Under the pieces are notes generated by a model. The model saw nothing but the letters and a program-made list of their open reading frames with translations, was not told where the DNA came from and did not search any database. The translations under genes were made by a program, and so were the position numbers. Source: Niallia alba (lineage in GTDB: Bacteria > Bacillota > Bacilli > Bacillales > Cytobacillaceae). From it: 64,000 bases of DNA. Shown piece by piece: positions 1 through 20,522 of this stretch (position 1 is its first letter; every line of letters begins with the position of its first letter). Where the stretch lies: positions 3,636,001-3,700,000 of the forward strand of contig NZ_JABBPK010000001.1 in assembly GCF_012933555.1 (NCBI RefSeq). Direction: 5' to 3'.

Positions 1-681
1 GGCTGGAAAAACATATCGCTTAAGAAACAATTAGAGGCACAATTTCATCTTCCTGTTTTAGTCGAAAATGAAGCAAACGCAGGAGCCTATGGAGAAAAGG
101 AATTCGGCCTAGGGCAACCTTTTCAAAATCTTATTTATGTAAGTGCAGGCATTGGAATTGGTGCTGGCATTATTATTAACGGAGAATTATATAAAGGAAC
201 GCTAGGTTATTCAGGTGAAATCGGTCATATGACCATACAAAAGGATGGACTAGAATGCCGCTGTGGCAATAAAGGCTGCTGGGAACTATATGCTTCTGAA
301 CAATACTTATTAACTAGAGCTACACAATTAAAGCTAGGAGATAAAAAACAAATTCATTTAAATGACTTAATTGAGCTTGCTAACCAAGGAAATAACCAAG
401 CAATCCATTTATTCCATGAGGTGGGGGATCATTTAGGATCTGGAATTATAAATATCATTCATACATTTAATCCAGAACAAATCATCATTGGAAATCGCCT
501 CTCCTTAGCAAAAAGATGGATAGAGCCACGTGTGAAAAAAATGATAAGTAATTATACTTTACCCTTTCATCAATCGAAGCTGACTATCCATTTCTCTGAT
601 ATTGATTTTGCGTCCTCTGCCTTAGGGGCTGCAGCTTTTTCTACAGAGAATTTTTTAAGATGTATGTTGCAGCCGGATTAA
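1..681 (+). CDS. xylR: XylR-type ROK family xylose-responsive repressor, C-terminal part
   Basis: The open frame enters at base 1 and ends at TAA 679-681, giving 226 codons of the sugar-binding half; the N-terminal winged helix lies outside the window. The fragment has the ROK pattern of a glycine-rich phosphate-binding segment (GIGIGAGIIINGELYKG) followed by EIGHM and the zinc-binding cysteine cluster CRCGNKGCWE. XylR repressors of Bacillaceae bind xyl operators and release them with xylose. The close fit to XylR rather than glucokinase is judged from the ENEANAGAYGE segment and from the adjacent xylan genes, so the exact ligand is inference. It converges on the GH8 gene, with only 57 bases between the two stops and no strong terminator. 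Confidence 0.8.
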   Translation, partial: GWKNISLKKQLEAQFHLPVLVENEANAGAYGEKEFGLGQPFQNLIYVSAGIGIGAGIIINGELYKGTLGYSGEIGHMTIQKDGLECRCGNKGCWELYASEQYLLTRATQLKLGDKKQIHLNDLIELANQGNNQAIHLFHEVGDHLGSGIINIIHTFNPEQIIIGNRLSLAKRWIEPRVKKMISNYTLPFHQSKLTIHFSDIDFASSALGAAAFSTENFLRCMLQPD

Positions 682-2194: not shown

Positions 2195-2336
2195 CGTATT
2201 GTCAAAACTTTTATAGTAAATAGGTTATTAAATCCTATCTGAGAGGGCTTTATAAGCAAAAAAATTGCCACCCCCTGAATTCTAAGGATAATTGAGGTTA
2301 CGACACTCTCAACAACCTAGAAAAGGAAGTGACAAT

Positions 2337-3776
2337 TTGTACCCTCAAATTATAACCTATTTATTAACTTTTATAAACTATCAAGAACAACTAATTCGAA
2401 CATTGCTTACTTTATTGATTGGTAAGAGTATGTTTGATAAGCCTACTGAACAGCCAGTAAATAAACCATATCGAAAACTTCAAGTGGACGACCTTCCGGT
2501 CATTGAAGTTCTGGAACAGCTTGATTATCGAGTTCTTCTTAGTGAATATCTAGAGAAGAACGGGAAACCACTTAAACCTGTTCAAAGGCGTAAGAATGCA
2601 AAAGTTTCCGTACCTAAATCCATGAACTGCCCAAAGTGTGGTGCTCCATCAGATTATCTTTATGCCAACAATGGAGATAAAGGCCAGTATCAATGCAAGG
2701 TGTGTACAGAGCTCTTCAGTGAAAAGAACCGTTATTCTAAGGAAGCCATCCTGAAGTGTCCTCATTGTTCCAAAACTCTCGAGAAAATAAAAGAAAGAAA
2801 AGATTTTCACGTGTTTAAGTGCAAGAACAATGACTGTTCTTATTATCAAAAGAAGCTCAATGGGATGACTTCAAAAGAAAAGAAAAGGTTCAAAAAGGAC
2901 CCTCAAGCATTTAAATTAAGATACATTTTCCGTCAGTTTCATATCGATTTCCAGCCGTTATCCAAGGAATCACCAGAACTGCCGGCCGTTGACTTATCAA
3001 AGATTTATGCATCACCACATACATTAGGATTAATCCTAACCTATCATGTAAACTATGGCCTTTCGGCCCGTAAAACAGCTGCGATTATGCAGGACGTACA
3101 CGGAGTGATGATTTCACATCAGACTGTATTGAACTACGAAAATAGCGTAGCTTTATTACTTAAACCTTATGTGGATCACTATCCCTATGAACTTTCAGAC
3201 CAATTCTGCGGTGATGAAACGTATATCAGAGTAAACGGTCGATGGCATTATTTATTTTTCTTTTTTGACGCCGTGAAAAAGATTATTCTTTCGTATCCGG
3301 TGTCGCCTAATCGAGACACAGCAACAGCCATTCGAGCAATTGATGAGGTCTTAATCAAGATGAAAGAGATTCCAGAAAATCTGACCTTTGTGGTAGACGG
3401 GAATCCAATCTATCTTTTAGCCCAACATTTCTTCGCTCAACATGGGATTTCATTCGATGTGAAGCAGGTCATTGGATTAACCAATGAGGACCCTGTTTCG
3501 ACCGAATATAGACCACTGAAACAAATAATTGAGAGACTTAACCGCACCTTTAAGGGCAATTATCGCTCCACTCATGGATTCGGCTCTGAACATGGTTCCA
3601 TTTCATACGTCACCTTATTTACGGCCTACTTTAACTTTTTGCGTCCGCATGCCGCCTTAGAAGGAAAAGTGCCCGTAGTGAATCCAGAACTCAAGGGGCT
3701 TCCAACAATGCCAGCACGTTGGACAAAGCTCATTGGATTAGCACAACAATGGATAGTAGAACAAAGACAAGCCTAA
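2337..3776 (+). CDS. DDE transposase with N-terminal zinc ribbons (IS copy A)
   Basis: The protein has about 479 residues if translation starts at TTG 2337, which has GGAAG seven bases upstream; the frame is open further upstream to a poorer TTG at 2292. The N-terminal third has a CPKCG...CKVC ribbon and a second CPHC...CKNNDC ribbon. Next come a helix-turn-helix-like stretch (GLSARKTAAIM) and a DDE core: Asp in GDETYIRV, Asp in VVDGNP and Glu in KQIIERLNRT. The core looks like the rve/IS6-type fold; the long zinc-ribbon extension is unusual for classical IS6. The frame is intact, so the element may still be active. Confidence 0.88.
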   Translation: MYPQIITYLLTFINYQEQLIRTLLTLLIGKSMFDKPTEQPVNKPYRKLQVDDLPVIEVLEQLDYRVLLSEYLEKNGKPLKPVQRRKNAKVSVPKSMNCPKCGAPSDYLYANNGDKGQYQCKVCTELFSEKNRYSKEAILKCPHCSKTLEKIKERKDFHVFKCKNNDCSYYQKKLNGMTSKEKKRFKKDPQAFKLRYIFRQFHIDFQPLSKESPELPAVDLSKIYASPHTLGLILTYHVNYGLSARKTAAIMQDVHGVMISHQTVLNYENSVALLLKPYVDHYPYELSDQFCGDETYIRVNGRWHYLFFFFDAVKKIILSYPVSPNRDTATAIRAIDEVLIKMKEIPENLTFVVDGNPIYLLAQHFFAQHGISFDVKQVIGLTNEDPVSTEYRPLKQIIERLNRTFKGNYRSTHGFGSEHGSISYVTLFTAYFNFLRPHAALEGKVPVVNPELKGLPTMPARWTKLIGLAQQWIVEQRQA

Positions 3777-3809
3777 CTTTTTGTTTAGCTGAGCCCTTAA
3801 GCTAATTCA

Positions 3810-3959
3810 GCAATCGGCGGAGCGAACTCTTGACAAACCGAACTTGCCAATGGTTTAAAATGGAAACAACCAAGGGCTTATTTGGTATGCCTTCTTTTGT
3901 TCCCTTCGCCCTTGTTAAACAATCCTCAAACCATTGGCGTGTTTGTCAAGAGCGATTGC
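3810..3959. other. Conserved 150-nt hairpin region in IS copy A
   Basis: Between the transposase stop and the right end, nested inverted repeats occur: GCAATCG with CGATTGC, CTCTTGACAAAC with GTTTGTCAAGAG, GCCAATGGTTT with AAACCATTGGC, and an inner CAAGGGC with GCCCTTG. The same arrangement and the same 150-nt length recur in copy B at 17204-17353. It has no coding capacity. It could be a terminator of read-through, a transposase-binding subterminal structure or a small RNA; the sequence does not decide between these. Confidence 0.75.
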
Positions 3960-3999
3960 GGCGCATCTCCATCCAGTAAATAGGAGAGAAACTAACCCT

Positions 4000-5247
4000 T
4001 TAGGTAGTTTTCATAAATCTTTTGACACTACCACTAACAGGTATTTTAATCACTAATTCCTTCTCAAAGCCTTCTCCTTTAGCCATTACCTCATTCCAAG
4101 CTACAAGTGTAATCGATCCATTTTCTTTTCGCGTAATAATCATTTGTGTATCACGATACAGAACTTCCTCACCAAGTCTATTGAAAAAGGAAAATAAATG
4201 AAAAGTTGGCTTTGGGATGGAATGAAGCGCCATTAAACCAAACCCGCCATGGAATAAAGCCTTTGGCACATCAGCCTCTTCAAAAACATCACTAAAAGTC
4301 CAATACGAAAAAGAATCGACAAAGTCTCCACCCTCACTTAATATCCGTGCAAGATAGGTTGCATTTAACGGTGTATCATGAACGGGATTGATCGGACTAT
4401 AAGAAGTATTATATTCGGTAATATGGAAGGGCAAATCAGAAAAAGGTGATTCCTTAATTAGACCACGAACTACCTCAAACTGTTTAAGCATATCTGTATT
4501 ATCTACTAGATCTTGATAATAATAATCAGGAGTAACTTTTTTAGGGCTTAGCGATGTGTAGGCATGTCGACTGACGAAATCTACAGGCACATTCTCCCTA
4601 TGACAGAAATTCAAGAAATCAACAATCCACTCGTCAGCACCACCACAAATTGCCGGACCACCAACCTGAAGATCTTGGTTTACCGCTTTAATTGCTAGCG
4701 CTGTAACTTTATATAGCCTAAAGTATTCTTCTTTATCGGCATCCTTCCAAAAGTTTACTAAGTTAGGCTCATTCCAAACTTCAAATGGCCATTGTTTAAC
4801 TTCTTCTATTCCATAGCGTTCAATAAAATGGTTTACTACTGCTGTAATTAAATTACTCCATTTTTGATAATCACTTGGTGGAGTTACATTTCCTTTCCAA
4901 TAAAAAATCGTTTGGTCACCAGAAGAAAGTAATTCTGGCATAAAACCAAATTCAATAAAGGGTCGTAAGTTCAGCTCAAGAAAAGAGTCAAAGATGCGGT
5001 CAATGTAAGTAAAGTTATAAAATGGCTTTACTTCCTCTCCTATCTTCATTTCCCGATAAATACCGACGTCATCTGAAAGTAAACCATGTCCTCTAATATA
5101 TTTAAATCCAATTTTCTCTTGAATAATTTTGAGATGATCAAGATATTCTTTCTGTAGTGCCAGACCAAGTCTCCCAGTTCCAATGCAATATTTCCAGTTT
5201 TCCTTCAGCTTCCCCTCTCCTTTTGATGCTATAATAATTGATTCCAT
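4000..5247 (-). pseudogene. xynB: GH39 beta-xylosidase, N-terminal part, truncated by IS copy A
   Basis: There are 405 native codons (5247 to 4033), then ten IS-encoded residues ([10 protein letters not shown]) and a stop at 4000-4002. The TIM-barrel catalytic domain is complete: acid/base Glu160 in VWNEPN and nucleophile Glu278 in HITEYN sit at the same numbers as in Geobacillus stearothermophilus XynB1. The lost C-terminal portion (about 99 residues, at 1887-2186) belongs to the accessory beta-sandwich. A joined frame would be 504 codons, the usual length for this group. The start ATG follows GGAGAGG. The enzyme would cleave xylose from xylo-oligomers in the cytoplasm; whether the truncated form folds is unknown. 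Confidence 0.92.
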
Positions 5248-10853: not shown

Positions 10854-12479
10854 TTAGTTATTTTTCTTGTATTCTTGATACGTTTTGTTTGCTGTATCTA
10901 CATATTGATCTAAGCCTTGACTTTGTAGCTCTTTTACAAAAGCATCAAATTCACTTAAATCACGAGTACCTAAAATAAACTTTAATGTGTTTTGGTTTGT
11001 ATAATCTTTTAATGGTGTACTTTGTAATGTTGCCTTTTCTCTATCTTCAATAGAATAAGGAATTAATGGGTCTGTTGGAATTGGTGTTTTGACTGCTTTC
11101 ATATCATTTTGGAACTTAATCTCTTCTTCACTCATCATGGAATGAAGCAAGTCTGTTGTTCCACCATAAGCAAAAACCCCGCCAGAGAAACCATAGTCAA
11201 CACGTAAATCCTGTGTTCCATTCGGATTTAAACCATTGTAATTGATATCATCTGTTAATTTTCTTTCTCCATCTTCCTTCGTGAACGTTGTTCCTTCTAC
11301 TCCCCATTTAGTAAATTCTTGCCCTTCATCACTGTAATATAACCAGTCAATAAACTGAAGAATTGCTTCGAAGTTTTCGCTTTCTTTAATTTTCGAAGTA
11401 ATCATCACGCCGTTTTCTAACCTAGATCCTGACATTAATTGGCCAGCAGGACCACCAGGAACAGTAATTTTTGAAATAGCGTAGTTTCCTTTACCTAATG
11501 TTTTATCCATATCCACACGATGTAAGTTAATTGTCTGAGAGTTTCCATTTATAATGAATGATTTACCAGTTACAAATTTCTGTACAGCTTGATCATCGCT
11601 TTGTGTGAAACTTTCTTCGTCTAACAAGCCTTCTTCCACTAACTTGTGAAAGTAAGTAAGCATTTCTTTATAGCCATCTGTTGTTGCTGCATAAACGAAT
11701 TCATCTGCATCTTGATCATAAGACAAGCCGTTTCCGAATCCCCATCCAGCTTTCGTTCCAAAACCTGTTGCTGCAATATTCAGTGTACTATTAAACGTAA
11801 AGCGGTCAGAGAAAGGAAATGAATCTGGATATACTTCTTTCAATTTCTTCATTGATGTATACAGCTCATCCCATGTTGTTGGAATAGCAATGTTATTTTC
11901 TTCAAAGATATCTGTTCTTACAATTAACGTATAATCTGGCCAAACCTCTTCATGTAAACCTGGAAGTACATAGAATTTCCCATCATTTTGACGTAAAGTA
12001 TCTAATTCAGAATCCATATTCCATTTTTCTACTTTTTCTTTGAAATGAGGCATTTTATCAATGTAATCGCTTACCGGAAGTGCCGCACCAGATGCTACAA
12101 AAGCAGATTCTTCTCCTGGGTATGTTTTTGGAATAACAATTGGTGCATCCCCTGAACTAATTAACAAACTTCTTTTTTGTGTGTAATCACTCATTGGAAC
12201 AATAGTTGGCTTTAATGTAACACCTGTGATTTCTTTAATCTTATCCCATAATAGCCAATCTTCTTTATATGGATATGTTGGCTGATCCATATATAAAATA
12301 GATAAATCAAATGGCTCAGTTGCTTTAAATGTGTCCCCTGCATTATAAGATTCCATTGCCCCTTTTGTCGATACTTCTGCCTCTTTACTTGTTGATTCTT
12401 CATTCGAACAAGCTACAGCAATAAGTACTAACATCATCAAACCTAGAAATAGCCCAACCTTTTTACAACTTTCTTTCAT
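10854..12479 (-). CDS. lplA: Sugar ABC transporter substrate-binding lipoprotein (LplA/AguE-like)
   Basis: A 541-residue extracellular solute-binding protein of family 1. It has a lipoprotein signal peptide: a Lys-rich start, the hydrophobic LFLGLMMLVLIA and the lipidation Cys24 in AVACSNEE. The large size (over 500) and the YLDPSYTQ-like layout match the LplA/YtcQ group, whose members bind oligosaccharides of uronic acids or plant glycans. In this cluster the likely ligand is (methyl)glucurono-xylo-oligosaccharide, an inference from GH67 and uxuA downstream. It follows its two permeases in the operon. No ATPase gene accompanies it, as is usual for MsmX-dependent importers. Confidence 0.85.
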   Translation of the reverse strand: MKESCKKVGLFLGLMMLVLIAVACSNEESTSKEAEVSTKGAMESYNAGDTFKATEPFDLSILYMDQPTYPYKEDWLLWDKIKEITGVTLKPTIVPMSDYTQKRSLLISSGDAPIVIPKTYPGEESAFVASGAALPVSDYIDKMPHFKEKVEKWNMDSELDTLRQNDGKFYVLPGLHEEVWPDYTLIVRTDIFEENNIAIPTTWDELYTSMKKLKEVYPDSFPFSDRFTFNSTLNIAATGFGTKAGWGFGNGLSYDQDADEFVYAATTDGYKEMLTYFHKLVEEGLLDEESFTQSDDQAVQKFVTGKSFIINGNSQTINLHRVDMDKTLGKGNYAISKITVPGGPAGQLMSGSRLENGVMITSKIKESENFEAILQFIDWLYYSDEGQEFTKWGVEGTTFTKEDGERKLTDDINYNGLNPNGTQDLRVDYGFSGGVFAYGGTTDLLHSMMSEEEIKFQNDMKAVKTPIPTDPLIPYSIEDREKATLQSTPLKDYTNQNTLKFILGTRDLSEFDAFVKELQSQGLDQYVDTANKTYQEYKKNN

Positions 12480-12606
12480 AGTATTTCCTCCCCTTATATA
12501 TATAGGAAAAGCGTAAAGTCGTTTTTCACTAAAAGCAGGCGTATAGAAGGAATCCTTAGGAAAAACAACTACGCTGAACTCCTGTTACTATTAAGGTCCT
12601 ATTTTA

Positions 12607-13476
12607 TTACTTAATAGAACCTAACATTACGCCAGAAACAAAGTACTTTTGTACAAATGGATACACCGTTAATATTGGCAAAATCGTTAATACCATTGTT
12701 ACCGACTTAATATTTGCAGAGATTTGTGTTAAGTTGTCGGCTGATGTTGCACCAGCTGACATGCCACTAGTTGTTCCCGCAATCATATTTCGTAGATAGA
12801 TAGTAACTGGAAATAATTCTTTTTTATCTAAATAAATGAAAGCACTGAACCAAGAATTCCAATATGCCACTGCATAAAATAACACCATCGTGGCAATTAC
12901 AGCTTTACTTAATGGCAATACAATTTTTAATAGAATGCCATACGTGTTTAAACCATCAATAGCTGCTGCCTCTTCAAGTTCCTCAGGCATATTTTCAAAA
13001 AAAGATTTCATAATCAGCATATTATAAATACTAATAGCACCTGGGATAACAATTGCCCACATAGTATTAGCGAATCCTAATGCGTTGATTAAAACATAGT
13101 TTGGAATTAAGCCTCCGTTAAAGAACATCGTAAATACAGCAAATACTGTTAAAAACCTGCGTCCTACTAATCTTCTTTTTGAAAGTGCATAGGCAAATAT
13201 TGTCGTCAAAAACATGGAAATGATTGTACCTACCACTGTATACACAACTGTGTTTTTATAATTAATCCAAAACATCGTATCAGAAAGAACCTTCTGATAG
13301 GTTTCTACATTAAATCCCTTTGGAAACAAATTTACCTGTCCTGAATTGATATAAGACTCACTACTAAAAGACTGTGCAACTACATTTATAAATGGATATA
13401 ACGTACAAAATATAATAATTAATAGAATACATACATTAAAGACTTTAAAGATTTTGTATTGCTTCGATTCTTTCAT
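12607..13476 (-). CDS. lplC: ABC transporter permease, CUT1 type (LplC/YtcP-like)
   Basis: A 289-residue integral membrane protein with six predicted helices. The EAA loop reads EEAAAIDGLNTYGILLKIVLP and contacts the ATPase. The C-terminal YFVSGVMLGSIK is typical of the LplC/YtcP subgroup. It pairs with the upstream permease (13489-14451), with 12 bases between the two. Import specificity is inferred from the glucuronoxylan genes nearby. Confidence 0.88.
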   Translation of the reverse strand: MKESKQYKIFKVFNVCILLIIIFCTLYPFINVVAQSFSSESYINSGQVNLFPKGFNVETYQKVLSDTMFWINYKNTVVYTVVGTIISMFLTTIFAYALSKRRLVGRRFLTVFAVFTMFFNGGLIPNYVLINALGFANTMWAIVIPGAISIYNMLIMKSFFENMPEELEEAAAIDGLNTYGILLKIVLPLSKAVIATMVLFYAVAYWNSWFSAFIYLDKKELFPVTIYLRNMIAGTTSGMSAGATSADNLTQISANIKSVTMVLTILPILTVYPFVQKYFVSGVMLGSIK

Positions 13477-13488
13477 CTAATCTCCCCC

Positions 13489-14451
13489 CTACCATAAACT
13501 TCTTTCAGTTAGTTTTCTCGATATGCTATTCGCTGTTAACACAAGCACTAAGCCTATTATGGATTCAAATAACCCAATAGCAGCCGCATAACTAAAATTA
13601 TTTGATTCTAAACCAACACGGTATAGATATGTTGAAATAACATCTGAAGTTTCATAGGTTAAAGGATTGTAAATCAATAAGATCTTTTCAAAGCCAATCG
13701 CTAGGAAACTACCAATATTCAAAATTAGGAGTGTAACAATTGTCGGCAATATACCTGGAATGGTAATATGCCAGGTTTGTTTCCAGCGGTTAGCACCATC
13801 TATCTTTGCTGCTTCATATAAAGAATCATCAATAGTCGTTAGGGCAGCCAAGTAAAGAATCGCTCCCCATCCCATTCCTTGCCATACTTCCGATGTAACA
13901 TAAATTGTCCTAAACCAGTCTGGACTTTGAATAAAGCTTATTTTTTCTCCTGTAAAAAACTCTACTATCGCATTAATGGAACCGTTTAATGCAGTCAATT
14001 GTAAAATCATTCCAGCTATGATAACAATAGATAAAAAATGCGGTAAATAGGAAGCTGTTTGTACAAATTTCTTGAATTTTTTCGACTTTATTTCATTTAA
14101 AAGAAGAGCAAAAATAATTGGCATCGGAAAACAAAACAGTAAAGTTATTCCGCCTAGAATGAGGGTGTTTTTAAATACATTCCAAAATACCGGGTCGTTA
14201 ATAAACATCTCAAAATAATATAAGCCTACCCATTGTTCGCCATACATTTTTCCGCCTGGCATATACCTTCTGAAAGCGATAACATTTCCAAGCATTGGAC
14301 CATATTTAAAAATTAATAAATAGATGAGTGGTAAAACCAACAAGGAATATAGCTGCCAATCTTTCCGTATAGCAGTTAACGTTGTTTTAAATCTACTTCT
14401 TTTTGTCTTTATTGTCTTATTTACTTGTGATTGAACGACTTCTGTTTCCAT
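13489..14451 (-). CDS. lplB: ABC transporter permease, CUT1 type (LplB/YteP-like)
   Basis: A 320-residue membrane protein with a cytoplasmic N-terminus of about 30 residues, six helices and an EAA loop YEAAKIDGANRWKQTWHITIP. It is the first transporter gene of the downstream block and is preceded by a 332-base leader with a cre-like site and a palindrome. The start ATG at 14451 follows GGGGGG. It forms the membrane channel with the LplC-like protein. Confidence 0.88.
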   Translation of the reverse strand: METEVVQSQVNKTIKTKRSRFKTTLTAIRKDWQLYSLLVLPLIYLLIFKYGPMLGNVIAFRRYMPGGKMYGEQWVGLYYFEMFINDPVFWNVFKNTLILGGITLLFCFPMPIIFALLLNEIKSKKFKKFVQTASYLPHFLSIVIIAGMILQLTALNGSINAIVEFFTGEKISFIQSPDWFRTIYVTSEVWQGMGWGAILYLAALTTIDDSLYEAAKIDGANRWKQTWHITIPGILPTIVTLLILNIGSFLAIGFEKILLIYNPLTYETSDVISTYLYRVGLESNNFSYAAAIGLFESIIGLVLVLTANSISRKLTERSLW

Positions 14452-14572
14452 GAGAACCCCCCGTTTCTGTTTAATAGTGACACACCAGTCGTTTGCTGAT
14501 TCATTGAATAGCAGCTAGCAGACTGTTATAAAGCAAAGCTTCACTTAAATGAATGAAGCGAAATACACTACT

Positions 14573-14586
14573 TTAAAGCGCTTACC
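14573..14586. promoter_or_regulatory. Candidate catabolite-responsive element (cre) upstream of lplB
   Basis: TTAAAGCGCTTACC fits the CcpA cre consensus (TGWAARCGYTWNCW) except for the second base. It lies 122 bases upstream of the lplB start and would let glucose repress the glucuronoxylan importer. Confidence 0.55.
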
Positions 14587-14742
14587 CAACAAAACTAAGA
14601 AGCTCTATTACAAAATTAAAAAAAGATAATATAAATAAGTTTATGATTGATTGCAAAGTCGATTTAAATTGGAGTGATGGTAATGAAAAGAATAAATGTT
14701 AATCAGGTTGTGAAATGCGGATTTTTTGTTCATTCAGTTTAA

Positions 14743-14756
14743 CCATACTAGTATGG
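14743..14756. promoter_or_regulatory. Perfect 14-bp palindrome, possible operator before lplB
   Basis: CCATACTAGTATGG lies 27 bases beyond the Nif3-like stop. On the minus strand it overlaps a weak promoter (TTGTCG, 17 bases, TATGGT). The shape suits a GntR- or LacI-type uronate regulator, which is not encoded in this window. The function is inference. Confidence 0.4.
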
Positions 14757-14783
14757 TAGATTATCGACAAAAACTTTTCTTGT

Positions 14784-15575
14784 TTAAAGAATCTGAAACA
14801 GTGGATCCTCTTTCAAGTAATGTACAGGAATATGTGGAAATTCAGCTTTCACTATAGATGTTAGATATTCCATGCCTGGTTCTTCACTAACAGCATGACC
14901 AATCAAAATTATTGCCCTCTTTTTCCCTTGGTAAATAGCATCTCTTACATACTCAGGTGACTCCCATTCTGGACCTTCGCCTGCTATAATTAGATCTAAA
15001 TGGTGCTGTTGGAATAAAGGAATTACCAATTCTCCTCCACCACGATAGCCTGCAAGTAATCCTATCTTTTGACATTGCATGGACAAATCGCCTACAATTC
15101 TTACAAAAGGCGCACCAAGCTTCGCTTTTACATACGTTGCTATTTCCCCAACCGTTTTTTGCGGTATCGTTAAAGTTGTTGCTGTTGGTTGATGCTTTTC
15201 GATATATTCTCTCCATTCAAGCTTATGGATTAAACCTAGCATTATTCCGTCTGGGTCATAGCGATGAAAATAATCATGAAAGCGAAAAATAGTGACATTC
15301 GACTCTTCTATTAATCGGAGCTTTGCCATGCATATAGGATCGTTCGCATATTTGTCTTTCCAATTTGCATGACTGTAAAAAGGACCTTCATGGGTAATGA
15401 TCAAATTAGCTTTAAGTGAAATTGCCTTTTCTAATACTTCTTGCGTTAGCATGAATGCGATTACAATTCCTGTCACATCAATATGAGGTGATCCTTTTAT
15501 TAGTACATCTGTTGTTGATTCAAACTTTCTTGCGGGCTCGATTAGTTTTTCTACTACTCTTTGAACACTCGTCAT
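14784..15575 (-). CDS. Nif3-like dinuclear metal centre protein
   Basis: A 263-residue protein of the Nif3/YqfO family, with the metal-ligand segments IITHEGPFY near residue 60 and LIGHAVSEEPG near 230. It lacks the inserted PII-like domain of longer YqfO proteins. Members often sit in sugar operons, but their reaction is not established. The ATG start follows GAGGGGGAG. It is the first gene of the downstream xylan block; its natural promoter appears to be at 17437-17477, now separated from it by IS copy B, whose end lies 23 bases before the start. Confidence 0.8.
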   Translation of the reverse strand: MTSVQRVVEKLIEPARKFESTTDVLIKGSPHIDVTGIVIAFMLTQEVLEKAISLKANLIITHEGPFYSHANWKDKYANDPICMAKLRLIEESNVTIFRFHDYFHRYDPDGIMLGLIHKLEWREYIEKHQPTATTLTIPQKTVGEIATYVKAKLGAPFVRIVGDLSMQCQKIGLLAGYRGGGELVIPLFQQHHLDLIIAGEGPEWESPEYVRDAIYQGKKRAIILIGHAVSEEPGMEYLTSIVKAEFPHIPVHYLKEDPLFQIL

Positions 15576-15590
15576 TTTATCTCCCCCTCA

Positions 15591-15598
15591 AGTTAATC
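15591..15598. repeat. 8-bp target-site duplication of IS copy B
   Basis: AGTTAATC at 15591-15598 is repeated exactly at 17427-17434, flanking the second insertion sequence. Confidence 0.92.
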
Positions 15599-15740
15599 CG
15601 TATTGTCAAAACTTTATATAGAAATAGGCTATTATATCCTATAATAGAGGGCTTTTTGAGCAAAAAAATTGCCACCCCCTGAATTCTAAGGATAATTGAG
15701 GTTACCACACACCCAACAACCTAGAATAGGAAGTGACAAA

Positions 15741-17177
15741 TTGTACCCTCAAATTATAACCTATTTACTTACTTTTATTAAGTACCAAGATCAGGTTATT
15801 CGAACATTATTAACTCTTTTGATTGGGAAAAGTATGTTTGATAAACCTGTAGAAAAACCTGTAAATAAGCCTTATCGAAAACTACAGGTAGACGACCTCC
15901 CAATCATCGAAACCCTACAAAAGTTTGATTATAAACTTCTTTTGAATGAGTATCAGGAGAAAAATGGGAAACCCCTTAAACCTGTTCGAAGACACTCAAA
16001 TTCAAAAACAACTGTTCCTTCCAGCATAAAATGTCCAAAGTGTGGTGCTCCATCTGATTTTCTTTATGCAAATAACGGAGACAAGGGACAGTATCAATGC
16101 AAGGTGTGTACATGTTTGTTTAACCAAAAAAATCATTATTCAAAAGAGGCAATTTTAAAATGTCCTCACTGTGCTAAAACGCTTGAAAAGGTCAAAGAGA
16201 GAAAAGATTTCGATGTATTCAAGTGTAAAAACAACGACTGTTCTTATTACCAAAAGAAACAAAATGGACTATCTTCAAAAGAGAAAAAACAGTTTAAAAA
16301 GGATCCACAGGCATTTAAAATGCGTTATATTTTCCGTCAGTTTCGTATCGATTACCAACCCTTATCGAAGCGTTCACCTCAGAAACCAAAGTTAGATTTA
16401 TCAAGACTATATGTGTCGCCACATACATTGGGACTGATTTTGACCTACCATGTGAACTATGGGTTGTCAGCCCGTAAAACAGCTGCACTCATGAAGGATG
16501 TACATGGTGTATCCATCTCCCACCAAAGCATTTTGAATTACGAAAATAGCGTAGCACTGATGCTTAAACCTTATGTGGACCATTATCCTTATGAGCTTTC
16601 TGATCAATTCTGTGGAGACGAGACCTACATTCGAGTGAAAGGTCGCTGGCATTATTTATTCTTCTTTTTTGATGCCGTAAAAAAGATTATTCTGTCTTAT
16701 CCTGTTTCTCCTAATCGAGATACTCAGTCAGCCATTCTGGCTATCGATGAGGTTCTTCTAAAGATGAAGGAAATCCCTAAAAACCTCACGTTTATTGTAG
16801 ATGGCAATCCGATTTACCTATTAGCCCAACATTTCTTTGCCCAACATGATATTTCGTTTGATGTGAAGCAAGTCATTGGATTAACCAACGAAGATCCAGT
16901 ATCAACAGAATACCGACCACTCAAGCAAATTATTGAACGACTCAATCGAACGTTTAAAGGAAATTATCGCTCGACTCATGGGTTTGGATCTGATCATGGA
17001 TCTGTTTCTTTCGTCACTTTGTTTGTCGCATACTTTAACTTTCTACGGCCTCATTCAGCCTTAGAAGGAAAAGTACCTGTGATTCATCCAGAGTTACTTC
17101 AGCTTCCCAATATGCCAGCAAGATGGACTAAGCTAATTGGATTAGCTCAAGATTGGATTATAGAACAAACAACCTAG
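15741..17177 (+). CDS. DDE transposase with N-terminal zinc ribbons (IS copy B)
   Basis: About 478 residues starting at TTG 15741, which follows GGAAG at the same spacing as in copy A; an upstream in-frame start at 15696 is less likely. It has the same domain order: two Cys4-type ribbons (CPKCG...CKVC and CPHC...CKNNDC), GLSARKTAALM, and the DDE residues in GDETYIRV, IVDGNP and KQIIERLNRT. The frame is complete. Differences from copy A cluster in the N-terminal half, while the catalytic core is almost unchanged, which indicates that both were kept under selection for transposition. Confidence 0.88.
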   Translation: MYPQIITYLLTFIKYQDQVIRTLLTLLIGKSMFDKPVEKPVNKPYRKLQVDDLPIIETLQKFDYKLLLNEYQEKNGKPLKPVRRHSNSKTTVPSSIKCPKCGAPSDFLYANNGDKGQYQCKVCTCLFNQKNHYSKEAILKCPHCAKTLEKVKERKDFDVFKCKNNDCSYYQKKQNGLSSKEKKQFKKDPQAFKMRYIFRQFRIDYQPLSKRSPQKPKLDLSRLYVSPHTLGLILTYHVNYGLSARKTAALMKDVHGVSISHQSILNYENSVALMLKPYVDHYPYELSDQFCGDETYIRVKGRWHYLFFFFDAVKKIILSYPVSPNRDTQSAILAIDEVLLKMKEIPKNLTFIVDGNPIYLLAQHFFAQHDISFDVKQVIGLTNEDPVSTEYRPLKQIIERLNRTFKGNYRSTHGFGSDHGSVSFVTLFVAYFNFLRPHSALEGKVPVIHPELLQLPNMPARWTKLIGLAQDWIIEQTT

Positions 17178-17203
17178 CTTTTGTTTAGCTGAGCCCTGAA
17201 CCA

Positions 17204-17353
17204 GCAATCGGCGGAGCGAACTCTTGACAAACCGAACTTGCCAATGGTTTAAAATGGAAAAAATCAAGGGCTTATTTGGCATGCCTTCTTTTGTCCCCTT
17301 CGCCCTTGATAACCTGAATTCAAACCATTGGTGTGTTTGTCAAGAGCGATTGC
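17204..17353. other. Conserved 150-nt hairpin region in IS copy B
   Basis: Stems match copy A: GCAATCG/CGATTGC, CTCTTGACAAAC/GTTTGTCAAGAG, and GCCAATGGTTT with AAACCATTGGT, where a C-to-T change leaves a G-U pair. The inner stem ATCAAGGGC/GCCCTTGAT is longer than in copy A. An ATG here opens a short frame that is not conserved in copy A. Confidence 0.75.
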
Positions 17354-17436
17354 GAGCCTCTCCACTTCAAAAAGGAAAGAAGAAAAAGACTTCAGGTTAC
17401 TTTTTCATAGAAGTTTTGACACTACCAGTTAATCAA

Positions 17437-17477
17437 ATTATACCATGCCAAAGTTTGTTTATTCAATATACAAACTA
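17437..17477 (-). promoter_or_regulatory. Promoter with palindromic XylR-like operator, separated from its operon by IS copy B
   Basis: On the minus strand TTGAAT, 18 bases and TATAAT (-10 at 17437-17442) form a good sigma-A promoter. Its -35 lies inside a 25-bp palindrome at 17452-17476 with half sites AGTTTGT/ACAAACT and TATT/AATA. The predicted start falls near 17430, within the IS target duplication. Bacillus XylR operators have similar AGTTTGT half sites but shorter spacing, so the assignment to XylR is inference. A near copy is at 26572-26596. Confidence 0.7.
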
Positions 17478-17527
17478 TTTTTTTTTACAACTTTTACTAT
17501 TATTTTTTCTAATTATCGATTCTACTC

Positions 17528-18163
17528 TTATTCTGTGATCACTTTATTTGTTTTTAGTTTCTGCACACGCTGAAAAATGAGAATACTACTTGACATTAGT
17601 ATGAAAGCTATAGAAACGCCACTAAAAAATGGAAGAAGACCAGGTATATAGAATAATAGAAACATATCTGCTGCTAATCCAAGGATCGCTAGCATTAATA
17701 TGTGGATATTTAAAACTCCTAGAAAAAAGGAGTATTTAAAGTAGTCAAAAAACTTTAGCTCGTAATGTACGTAAACAGGAAAGAAGAATAAAACGGTAAT
17801 AAGGTATAAACAAGAAATCAATAGCAATATACTTGTTGCAACAATACGGATTATCCCATCTAAATTTAAAATAAGATAGTAATCTACATACAACATTATT
17901 CCAGCCATTACAAATACTAAACCAAAACTATTGCTCTTGATAAATTCACTTTTATAGACGGAGAAGAATGTTTTCCAGATGGGAACTTCCGTTTCTTTCA
18001 TAAACCATTTTCGGACAACAGTAAATAGTGCTGCTGTTGCTGGCATAAAGCCCAATAGGATAAGACCACTGACTGTGAACATTATCCACAGTAAATTAAT
18101 ATAAGCTAGCTTCATAATCCATTCACAAATGGTATATAACTTCCCCATTGGTTTTGTTGACAT
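17528..18163 (-). CDS. DUF624 / YesL-like membrane protein
   Basis: A 211-residue protein with about five hydrophobic segments and the N-terminal WIMKLAYINLLWIMFTVSG typical of YesL (DUF624). It is the last gene of the upstream xylan block, after GH52, from which an R2 repeat separates it. Function unknown; the family tracks with CUT1-type importers and YesM/YesN regulators. The start ATG is followed by STKPMGKLY, and AGAGGGGAT lies upstream. Confidence 0.78.
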   Translation of the reverse strand: MSTKPMGKLYTICEWIMKLAYINLLWIMFTVSGLILLGFMPATAALFTVVRKWFMKETEVPIWKTFFSVYKSEFIKSNSFGLVFVMAGIMLYVDYYLILNLDGIIRIVATSILLLISCLYLITVLFFFPVYVHYELKFFDYFKYSFFLGVLNIHILMLAILGLAADMFLLFYIPGLLPFFSGVSIAFILMSSSILIFQRVQKLKTNKVITE

Positions 18164-18225
18164 GCTTATCCCCTCTACTTTCTTCTTTCCTTCTAGCCTA
18201 TTTTCTGACTTATTTTTAAATTACT

Positions 18226-18381
18226 ATAAAGAAAACTTCCATCAGTAGGGATCTTTTCTCATCCCCCACTGATGGTTAGTTGTACTTATCAGACTTTTAA
18301 GAGAGAGTTTCATCACAAAGGCTTCCTCCATTTTCCGCAGCTTAATCTGAAGGTTTTCACTACCCGTTAAGAGCGGAAATA
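18226..18381 (+). repeat. R2 structured repeat
   Basis: It starts ATAAAGAAAACTTCCATCAG, contains CCCCCACTGATGGTTAGTTG and ends CCCGTTAAGAGCGGAAA. It fills the gap between GH52 and the YesL-like gene and is oriented opposite to them. Confidence 0.8.
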
Positions 18382-18401
18382 CACTATCTGAAAAGGGGCT
18401 T

Positions 18402-20522
18402 CTACTGCTTTTCTTCTAACCACAAGATGCTTGTTACTCCGCGTGGGTAGTATTTGCTTCCCGCAATTTCTCCTGCTATTATTTGATCACTCCAACTCCA
18501 AATGGACAGTTCGGGATGTGTTAGCCATTCTACATGTGTAGCATCAGCCTTTGCTCCTTTTTCATCCCAGTTCCAGCCCAGAATTTCTCGAGCGATAAAT
18601 TGGCATAAATAAATTTTACTTAGCCAAGAATTATTACTTGTCGATGAAATTTTCCAGCCACCATCTTCAAATAAACAATTTCCTTCTGTTAAAACTGTTT
18701 CAAAATGTGTTTTTAATGCTTGAATGTATGCCCCGAAACAACCATTCACATCTAATGCATCCTTACAGTTTGTAAAGTATGGGAATATTAATCCTTCAAT
18801 TGCTGGAATAATTTTCGAGTCATTGCCTTCACCGATGACAGCTGGAATATAACCAGCTTCCGTTACATGCTCCACAATCGTTGCCGCACATTTTTCTGCT
18901 TGTTCTCCAGCAATTTTGGCTAACTCTGTTCGCTCATTCTCTGCAAATATTCTTTCAAGCGCAATATAGGAAGCCCATATTTTTCCTGCGAGATAAATAT
19001 TGTTTCTTGCCTGCCCTAAAGACACATCAAGGCTGTCATAGGTGGTAATTTCTGCACCGCCCATTACTCTCGAAGAATCTAATCCCATTAAGCCGTTACG
19101 TTTATCTGGTTCTGGATGATCTCGATTTAACATACTATCAAAACATCGTTCCACTATTTCTAAATTCGCATCCAGCCACTCTTTATCCTCTGTATGGCTA
19201 ACATAAAGAGCAGCACATAATACCCAGTTTACTAGCTGTTCATGTGTCATGTGTGAGAAGCATCCGTCTAAGCCATATAATTCATAGGATGAATAATGAG
19301 GACGAGATATAGTATTCGCTACGCCCATATCATGGGTAAAACTTATGCCGCCTGGATATTCTGTATCATCATTTGGAAACCGAACGGTATCTTCATAACT
19401 AAATCGTTGTACAAACATATCTAATTCATTTTTCACTGTCCATGGATTCATCCTTAGTTCATAGAAAATCTGATCCACTGTTAAATCGAAGGTATTCATC
19501 ATTCGATATTCCCCTTCGTTTACCACCCAAAAAGGCTCACCATAATTATCTAAGAGTTGCGTAGAACCGTAATAGCTGCGAATAGAGTGAATTAACATAA
19601 ACTTTTGATCTTCTGATAAATGATTTGTACTATCTATTTTTTTATTCGCATTTTTCGCTCTGTCTGCAAGTGGATCAAAGTTTTTAAGCGCATATTCAGC
19701 AACAGACTCGATATTATTAAAGAAGTTTGTATAGTAATAAGAAGTATCCATTCCTGCAGTTACAATCCCACCTCTATAAAAACAGATGGCAAATTGGTAT
19801 GTTCTTTTTTCTCCTGCTGGAACATCCATAACAAGTGCTCCTAAAGGTCCTAATCCAAATGTCCAATTCTCTTCTTCAGGAGTTGTTAGAATATTTTCCA
19901 AACTAAAGTGCATTGCTGATTTTACATCAGGATTATTGGATACAATAGCAGTCAATCTGCCTTGACCAATACCTGCAAAGCCATCCATTGTATCATCGAC
20001 TCTTCGCATCGATGAATAAGGATCACTCCCCTGATAGCCGAAAAAAGCCCGTCTATTTCTTGTTCCATTTGTATTATCTACTGTCAATTCAGCAAGTACA
20101 GCTGGCAAAATAGTACTTTTCAATTCTTCTTCATTTGCAGCTTTTGGATCTGGAACACCTTCCACTTGGGAGTAAATAGTAAAAGATAGATCCTCAGATT
20201 CCCATGTATCTGTTCCAAGTTGAAAATTACGTTTTATTTTATCTTTAGAGATAGGAAAAATTATATTAGGCTTATCAGGATCTGGATCCATATTTTCAAT
20301 ATCATACCTTTTACTTTCATCATCCTCTTGATACGCAAAGAATGGAAATGCTTGATATGTCCCTTTTTTGTCTAAAACTTCAGCCCCAATATAAATATTT
20401 TGTTTAGGAGAACGACCTAGCTCTAAATCTAATCCGCCACCTGCACCTGGAAAACCTAGTGTGAAGCTGGAAAACGCTCCTATTGGAGAATGATGAGCAT
20501 TAAAAAATGAATTTTTTGGCAT
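18402..20522 (-). CDS. GH52 beta-xylosidase
   Basis: A 706-residue cytoplasmic enzyme of the small GH52 family. The N-terminus (FFNAHHSPIGAFSSFTLGFP) is diagnostic. Glu336 in VVNEGEYRMMNTFD and Asp496 in EITTYDSLDV correspond to nucleophile Glu335 and acid Asp495 of Geobacillus XynB2, with an offset of one. Length agrees with the family (about 705). It releases xylose from the non-reducing end of imported xylo-oligomers. It follows the XynEFG-like importer, 22 bases after the permease, and could replace the broken GH39 enzyme. Confidence 0.95.
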   Translation of the reverse strand: MPKNSFFNAHHSPIGAFSSFTLGFPGAGGGLDLELGRSPKQNIYIGAEVLDKKGTYQAFPFFAYQEDDESKRYDIENMDPDPDKPNIIFPISKDKIKRNFQLGTDTWESEDLSFTIYSQVEGVPDPKAANEEELKSTILPAVLAELTVDNTNGTRNRRAFFGYQGSDPYSSMRRVDDTMDGFAGIGQGRLTAIVSNNPDVKSAMHFSLENILTTPEEENWTFGLGPLGALVMDVPAGEKRTYQFAICFYRGGIVTAGMDTSYYYTNFFNNIESVAEYALKNFDPLADRAKNANKKIDSTNHLSEDQKFMLIHSIRSYYGSTQLLDNYGEPFWVVNEGEYRMMNTFDLTVDQIFYELRMNPWTVKNELDMFVQRFSYEDTVRFPNDDTEYPGGISFTHDMGVANTISRPHYSSYELYGLDGCFSHMTHEQLVNWVLCAALYVSHTEDKEWLDANLEIVERCFDSMLNRDHPEPDKRNGLMGLDSSRVMGGAEITTYDSLDVSLGQARNNIYLAGKIWASYIALERIFAENERTELAKIAGEQAEKCAATIVEHVTEAGYIPAVIGEGNDSKIIPAIEGLIFPYFTNCKDALDVNGCFGAYIQALKTHFETVLTEGNCLFEDGGWKISSTSNNSWLSKIYLCQFIAREILGWNWDEKGAKADATHVEWLTHPELSIWSWSDQIIAGEIAGSKYYPRGVTSILWLEEKQ

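Follow-up and report, generated by a model that had tools for sequence, protein, structure and literature searches.

Among described elements, those nearest to the insertion sequence (IS) analysed here are long IS6-like ISs, namely clade VIII of one phylogeny (Harmer and Hall 2019, PMC6807381), which corresponds to clade i of another (Varani et al. 2021, PMC7986276) and includes ISTet2, ISHahy6 and ISHco2; according to these papers, such elements are 1.7–1.8 kb long, generate an 8-bp target duplication and encode a transposase of about 450 amino acids or more with a zinc finger, a further N-terminal extension and a DDE domain. For the longer bacterial ISs, the authors of the 2019 paper state that they could find no experimental data (PMC6807381), and the term ‘start codon’ occurs in the text of neither paper. 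Here we analyse an IS in a stretch of 64,000 nt from Niallia alba (NZ_JABBPK010000001.1, positions 3,636,001–3,700,000; ‘the window’), whose genome comprises 5.24 Mb in two contigs. With 1828 bp and a transposase of 493 amino acids (as given by the longest open reading frame (ORF)), this Bacillales element can be likened to ISTet2, ISHahy6 and ISHco2 by description only. With IS26 and the short IS6 elements it has the DDE_Tnp_IS240 domain and the 8-bp duplication in common, but the latter are only about 0.8 kb long and have no zinc finger. Target choice by many simple insertion sequences is generally regarded as loose. The long IS6-like transposase of this element, as judged from the sites it occupies, very probably picks a bipartite target DNA consisting of a Shine–Dalgarno-like run and an ATG, which in the window would have been the translation start of nif3. 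This is reminiscent of Tn7 at glmS, where recognition also occurs outside of the insertion point, with fixed distance and orientation; Tn7, however, uses the end of one gene and a dedicated protein, whereas many Shine–Dalgarno–ATG sites are used here. A search of the open-access literature, preprints excluded, found no report of start-codon or Shine–Dalgarno targeting by insertion sequences.

The element is bounded by the ends CGTATTGTCAAAAC and GTTTTGACACTACC, and the transposase gene is the only gene we noticed in it. The N. alba genome carries 15 IS copies, i.e. five near-identical ones and ten of an isoform that is about 79% identical. The four other near-identical copies are 99.7–100% identical to the one at 15599–17426, from which they differ at 0, 1, 3 and 5 bases, with one also showing a gap and one being identical across the entire 1828 bp. 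These near-identical copies within a single genome indicate that the element has moved recently.

The flanks of these and related copies reveal a nearly invariant geometry. Distances are given in nucleotides from the IS edge to an ATG that reads away from the left end of the element, and copies come from the 10 of 193 genomes of the family that have a match, from 26 of 397 at the level of the order and from 7 of 398 at that of the phylum (the N. alba genome and one family member being among the last); many of the listed copies were fetched, with some copies and fragments left out. In 17 flanks, belonging to the 15 copies of N. alba and two of one relative, the ATG is found at 23 nt in 15 cases and at 24 nt in two, and all 17 have verified 8-bp duplications at both ends. 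A first count of 48 sites yielded 42 at 23 nt and two at 24 nt. In a wider set (120 sites from 26 genomes, defined more strictly than in the recount below), the ATG is at 23 nt in 95 sites and at 24 nt in 15, with five sites having another start codon or a nearby ATG and five none. Of 22 loci of one genome that were outside of the first site set, 20 have variant left ends and two ordinary ones. For a recount, edges were placed by alignment, and 232 raw edges were reduced to 149 distinct flanks and, after removal of three containing N and five internal to arrays, to 141 distinct sites, at one of which the edge could not be matched to the end motif. Here, the ATG is located at 23 nt in 112 sites and at 24 nt in 19 (131 of 141). 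Duplications at both ends were verified for 100 of the 141 sites, and these alone give a similar picture (80 at 23 nt, 15 at 24 nt, one with another start codon or an ATG at 22 nt and four with none). As a control, the right ends of 95 elements have an ATG at 23 nt in three cases and at 24 nt in none. It is the left end that faces the ATG, and over many sites orientation is fixed together with distance.

The second part of the target is a G-rich run, which is found 11–15 nt from the left IS edge in the 141 sites and which mostly stays put in the group with the ATG at 24 nt, while the ATG shifts. The eight duplicated bases are nearly devoid of sequence signal, and none was detected upstream of the duplication among 95 sites. 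Compared with the ordinary gene starts of the window, 31 of which have an ATG, the G-run of the targets is sharper and 1–2 nt closer to the ATG, which suggests that the element picks a particular spacing. This motif also has predictive power: a weight matrix derived from the first 48 sites and applied to rebuilt empty sites (58 of the 72 later sites, held out from training and with verified duplications) gave the true insertion point the top rank among about 1958 positions in 40 of the 58 cases and one of the top three ranks in 48. That the element would rather be directed to promoters or transcription starts might be suspected from the locus in the window itself, where the insertion point coincides with a predicted start site. 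With the lack of any signal upstream of the duplication in the 95 sites, and with insertions found within operons (before infB) as well as in GH39 coding DNA, we give this idea almost no credence. The position of the insertion is explained by the choice of an ATG with a G-run and not by promoter targeting.

The rule extends to more distant relatives. Of the plasmid records that contain a relative, eight out of 11 were fetched, and the left end could be placed in five of these (L236, L237 and L238 remaining unplaced), which have transposases that are 47–67% identical; the ATG is at 23 nt in L232, L234 and L235 and at 24 nt in L231. Among chromosomal relatives, L252, L254 and L268 have it at 23 nt (L254 may overlap with the 141-site set), and L251 and L255, which represent one shared site, at 24 nt. 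Target sites can also be re-used: in L330 (1001–4664), two different isoforms are stacked at one point, with the same 8 bp on either side of the pair and also separating its members, and L211 (564–12397) comprises a row of six units, of which one is longer and broken. Such arrays, in which as many as six units are spaced by identical 8-bp sequences, stand before one start codon. Separately, the partial transposase of L238, on the Aeromonas plasmid pNe-1, is 100% identical over 263 amino acids and lies beside stretches of N.

Several observations weigh against a transposase that simply reads this motif. Ten of the 141 sites have no ATG at 23–24 nt, i.e. five have another start codon (at 22–25 nt) or an ATG at 22 nt and five have no start codon there at all, and the plasmid relative L233 is devoid of an ATG at 22–25 nt. 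Six of the 58 held-out sites were ranked below tenth, with five of these having the ATG at 24 nt. Moreover, 27 of the 36 motif matches in the 64-kb window that score at least 10 lie outside of listed gene starts and only nine at them, even if some of the former may be true alternative starts. Since an ORF of 60 codons or more, by comparison, lies in front of 90 of 120 insertions, the motif alone cannot explain the excess at genes, and purifying selection or another factor is needed. Selection acting entirely by itself, i.e. random insertion upstream of genes with only tolerated sites persisting, would be in line with this predominance of ORFs, as it would remove intragenic insertions. It would not be expected, however, to fix distance to within 1–2 nt plus orientation, and ATGs that are unlike usual gene starts are also used, such as one inside of GH39 (L007) and those of frames of just two (L198) or six codons (L173), which makes survivorship a very improbable account of the pattern. 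The same three sites argue that it is the motif rather than the gene that is read.

How might a transposase recognize such a target? In the mechanism we propose, it would read a G-rich, Shine–Dalgarno-like run followed about 7 nt later by an ATG and would then insert the element with its left end towards the ATG, such that the ATG and the element would be separated by 15 bp, or sometimes 16, in addition to the 8-bp duplication. The protein scores 35.5 bits against PF13610 (DDE_Tnp_IS240; cut-off 27) but only 73.5 bits against the NCBIfam IS6 equivalog NF033587, and since the latter is below the curated cut-off of 125, we call it IS6-like rather than IS6 in the strict sense. In 21 aligned sequences, D308, D369 and E405 are invariant, as are C113, C116, C156, C159, C177 and C182, with C135 and C138 present in at least 90%. 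These cysteine sets, a putative zinc finger, are preceded by an N-terminal extension of about 110 residues. It is probably the transposase itself that reads the motif as DNA, perhaps by means of its N-terminal zinc-ribbon region; the transposase of L236 is missing the middle part of this cysteine region. A search by sequence for related solved structures returned none, and three pattern matches in viral contigs do not include a relative of the transposase.

A non-coding element with nested hairpins at the right end of the IS raises the alternative that RNA, either this structured RNA or mRNA and ribosomes, rather than plain DNA reading guides the element to translation starts. That the target is a translation signal would fit such guidance, and the structure, about 150 nt following the transposase gene, is conserved and covaries strongly over Bacillales: of 34 pairs in 22 sequences, 13 show changes on both sides, as do 41 cells, compared with 6.3 and 9.3, respectively, in shuffled controls. 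Folding in the window is stronger than expected on both strands (z about −3), and a distant element from L. brevis, L236, also folds strongly (z = −6.15). The Pediococcus element L234 (z = 1.84) and another one from L. brevis, L235 (z = −0.07), keep the 23-nt rule with no unusual folding in the stretch tested, and because of these two the right-end structure seems dispensable for target choice; together with the use of ATGs that open frames of two or six codons, this renders RNA guidance quite improbable. A specific version, in which a CCCC loop of a guide RNA pairs with the G-run, was discarded, as positions −7 and −6 do not fit by eye and the two relatives show no unusual folding. Rfam has no match at this right-end element and, outside of the IS, one below the gathering score.

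Table 1. Features of the window discussed in the text (positions count from the first nucleotide of the window).
Feature	Position	Strand	Remarks
XylR-like ROK regulator, C-terminal part	229..681	+	gene starts outside of the window (C1:3635506)
IS copy 1 (79% isoform)	2195..4032	+	inside GH39; left end 23 nt from ATG at 2171
lplB-type permease	13489..14451	-	first gene of transport/glucuronate block
cre-like site GTAAGCGCTTTAAA	14572..14585	-	GTAAGCGCTT in 5/5 genomes
perfect palindrome ACCATACTAGTATGGT	14742..14757	-	core CCATACTAGTAT common to 5/5 genomes; second control region before lplB
nif3 (DUF34/NIF3)	14784..15575	-	cut off from promoter; reading frame intact
nif3 start codon	15573..15575	-	anchor of proposed target; 23 nt from left IS edge
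nif3 Shine–Dalgarno G-run	15583..15587	-	C-run on + strand; second part of proposed target
target duplication, left IS end	15591..15598		8-bp direct repeat AGTTAATC
insertion sequence, intact	15599..17426	+	1828 bp
transposase	15696..17177	+	493 amino acids (longest ORF); IS6-like DDE domain, two zinc-ribbon-like cysteine sets
nested-hairpin non-coding element	17204..17353	+	conserved; right end of IS
target duplication, right IS end	17427..17434		8-bp direct repeat AGTTAATC
promoter TTGAAT-N18-TATAAT	17437..17466	-	conserved in 4/4 other nif3-bearing genomes of the genus
putative XylR-like operator AGTTTGTATATTGAATAAACAAACT	17452..17476	-	overlaps −35

At the locus in the window (table 1), a preliminary description had placed an IS copy between nif3 and a promoter with an embedded 25-bp palindrome, with the predicted transcription start (about 17430) inside of the target duplication and the nif3 ribosome site just past the other IS end, and our analysis bears out this arrangement in all its parts; the nif3 start codon, too, lies just past that end. 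On the minus strand, the promoter consists of TTGAAT at 17466–17461, an 18-bp spacer and TATAAT at 17442–17437, with a TG ahead of the −10 element. Hexamers of this kind prove nothing by themselves, as 23 promoter-like matches in 12400–18500 compare with a shuffle mean of 22.7, and conservation is the stronger argument for a promoter. nif3 is present in five of 13 genomes of the genus, that of N. alba included. The comparison with relatives lacking the IS that had been suggested shows an empty site in all four other nif3 genomes, along with conservation of the promoter, the operator region, the start point and the ribosome site. Before the insertion, nif3 would have had a leader of only some 20 nt, so that an insertion at the distance dictated by the start codon would also hit the predicted transcription start of the XylR-type operator-promoter.

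The palindrome has 11 of 12 arm positions complementary, and AGTTTGT-N11-ACAAACT occurs in it as the sole exact match in 5.24 Mb. A second copy of the operator motif is found 8.5–18.2 kb away in each of the five nif3 genomes; in four of them neither copy has a mismatch, and in G010 the nif3 copy has two. The eight genomes of the genus without nif3 have no zero-mismatch motif, with six having a match with two mismatches. In N. alba, the second copy has on one side an ORF that looks like an aldo-keto reductase and on the other a ROK repressor gene; one of the two ROK proteins (PF00480) adjoins a xylose-isomerase-like gene elsewhere and the other is located beside this cluster. As in XylR-regulated xylose and xylan operons, a XylR-like ROK gene adjoins the cluster, with the same motif upstream of it. 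Binding of XylR (ROK) has been tested at operators of Anaerocellum bescii, including xynUVW and xylA probes (PMC12285236); by eye, the palindrome shares GTTTGT...ATAAAC.AA with the xynUVW probe and half-sites with xylA (PMC12285236). XylR-type control of nif3 seems likely, and with the insertion nif3 would have lost this xylose-type control, with read-through or the IS itself now providing the gene with some transcription. This DUF34/NIF3 gene heads a glucuronoxylan utilization block; it has relatives in Metabacillus and Cohnella, too, as well as in many Bacteroidota (44 loci). A hybrid promoter towards nif3 starting from a TTGACA of the left end was dismissed upon inspection, as the Shine–Dalgarno sequence occupies the place of the −10 element. 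Inspection of the other IS end, on the right, points to a possible hybrid promoter (TTGACA-N17-TATACC, 17416–17444), which is absent from the promoter scan list, is antisense to a DUF624 gene and points away from nif3.

Does the IS silence or rewire the entire glucuronoxylan block by blocking the operator-promoter, as had been proposed in the preliminary description? The conserved promoter and operator are now 1828 bp away from nif3, and transcripts entering from there could be ended in the right end, where, by eye, the minus strand has a T-run after a 9-bp stem that encloses a long loop; the stem also appears in the computed fold, with the terminator scan raising no flag. The GH39 break that had been cited in support is also real, with the parts at 4000–5247 and 1887–2171 flanking IS copy 1. 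The lplB block, however, seems to have a control region of its own. The 330-bp gap between nif3 and lplB contains CCATACTAGTAT and GTAAGCGCTT in five of five genomes, and 14572–14757, within the very interval (14452–14783) where a transcription start had been named as a counter-indication to silencing, looks like a separate conserved control region, with 14572–14585 presumably being a catabolite site (cre). From there, lplB and the genes beyond are probably still expressed, and the block would be separated from the promoter at 17437–17476 only as far as it relied on read-through. A leader hairpin before lplB (14538–14559), a possible attenuator or RNA stabilizer, is by eye kept in relatives despite its changed sequence. 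nif3, lplB and the ABC, UxuA and UxuB genes have all retained their domain matches.

Further evidence against silencing comes from the complete genome G445, where a related IS with the duplication TTATGATT is tolerated directly before infB, the ribosome site of which is intact. This infB is the only match over the IF-2 cut-off, and the gene on the far side of the IS reads like ylxQ. As bacteria cannot do without IF-2, sufficient transcription should either pass through the element or originate within it, and such insertions apparently need not silence what follows. Further copies precede genes for a succinate dehydrogenase membrane subunit, OMP decarboxylase and WhiA, among others. A possible outward promoter (TTnATA-N16-18-TATAAT) is present about 155 nt inside of the left end in 15 of 25 isoforms, but lies within the longest transposase ORF, and we do not count its conservation as evidence of function. 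Overall, silencing of the whole block seems unlikely; what stands of the earlier proposal is that the IS separates nif3, and recently so, from its conserved operator-promoter at the predicted start site.

If the long IS6-like transposase indeed chooses a G-run and an ATG as its target, it would leave the ribosome site and coding sequence of a gene untouched while swapping the region upstream, which would make the element a systematic promoter rewirer. Where such insertions are found next to operons, their position would reflect the element and not selection on the operon. Moreover, these elements would offer a natural lesson in target choice by protein–DNA recognition and could possibly be turned into a means of inserting DNA where genes start.

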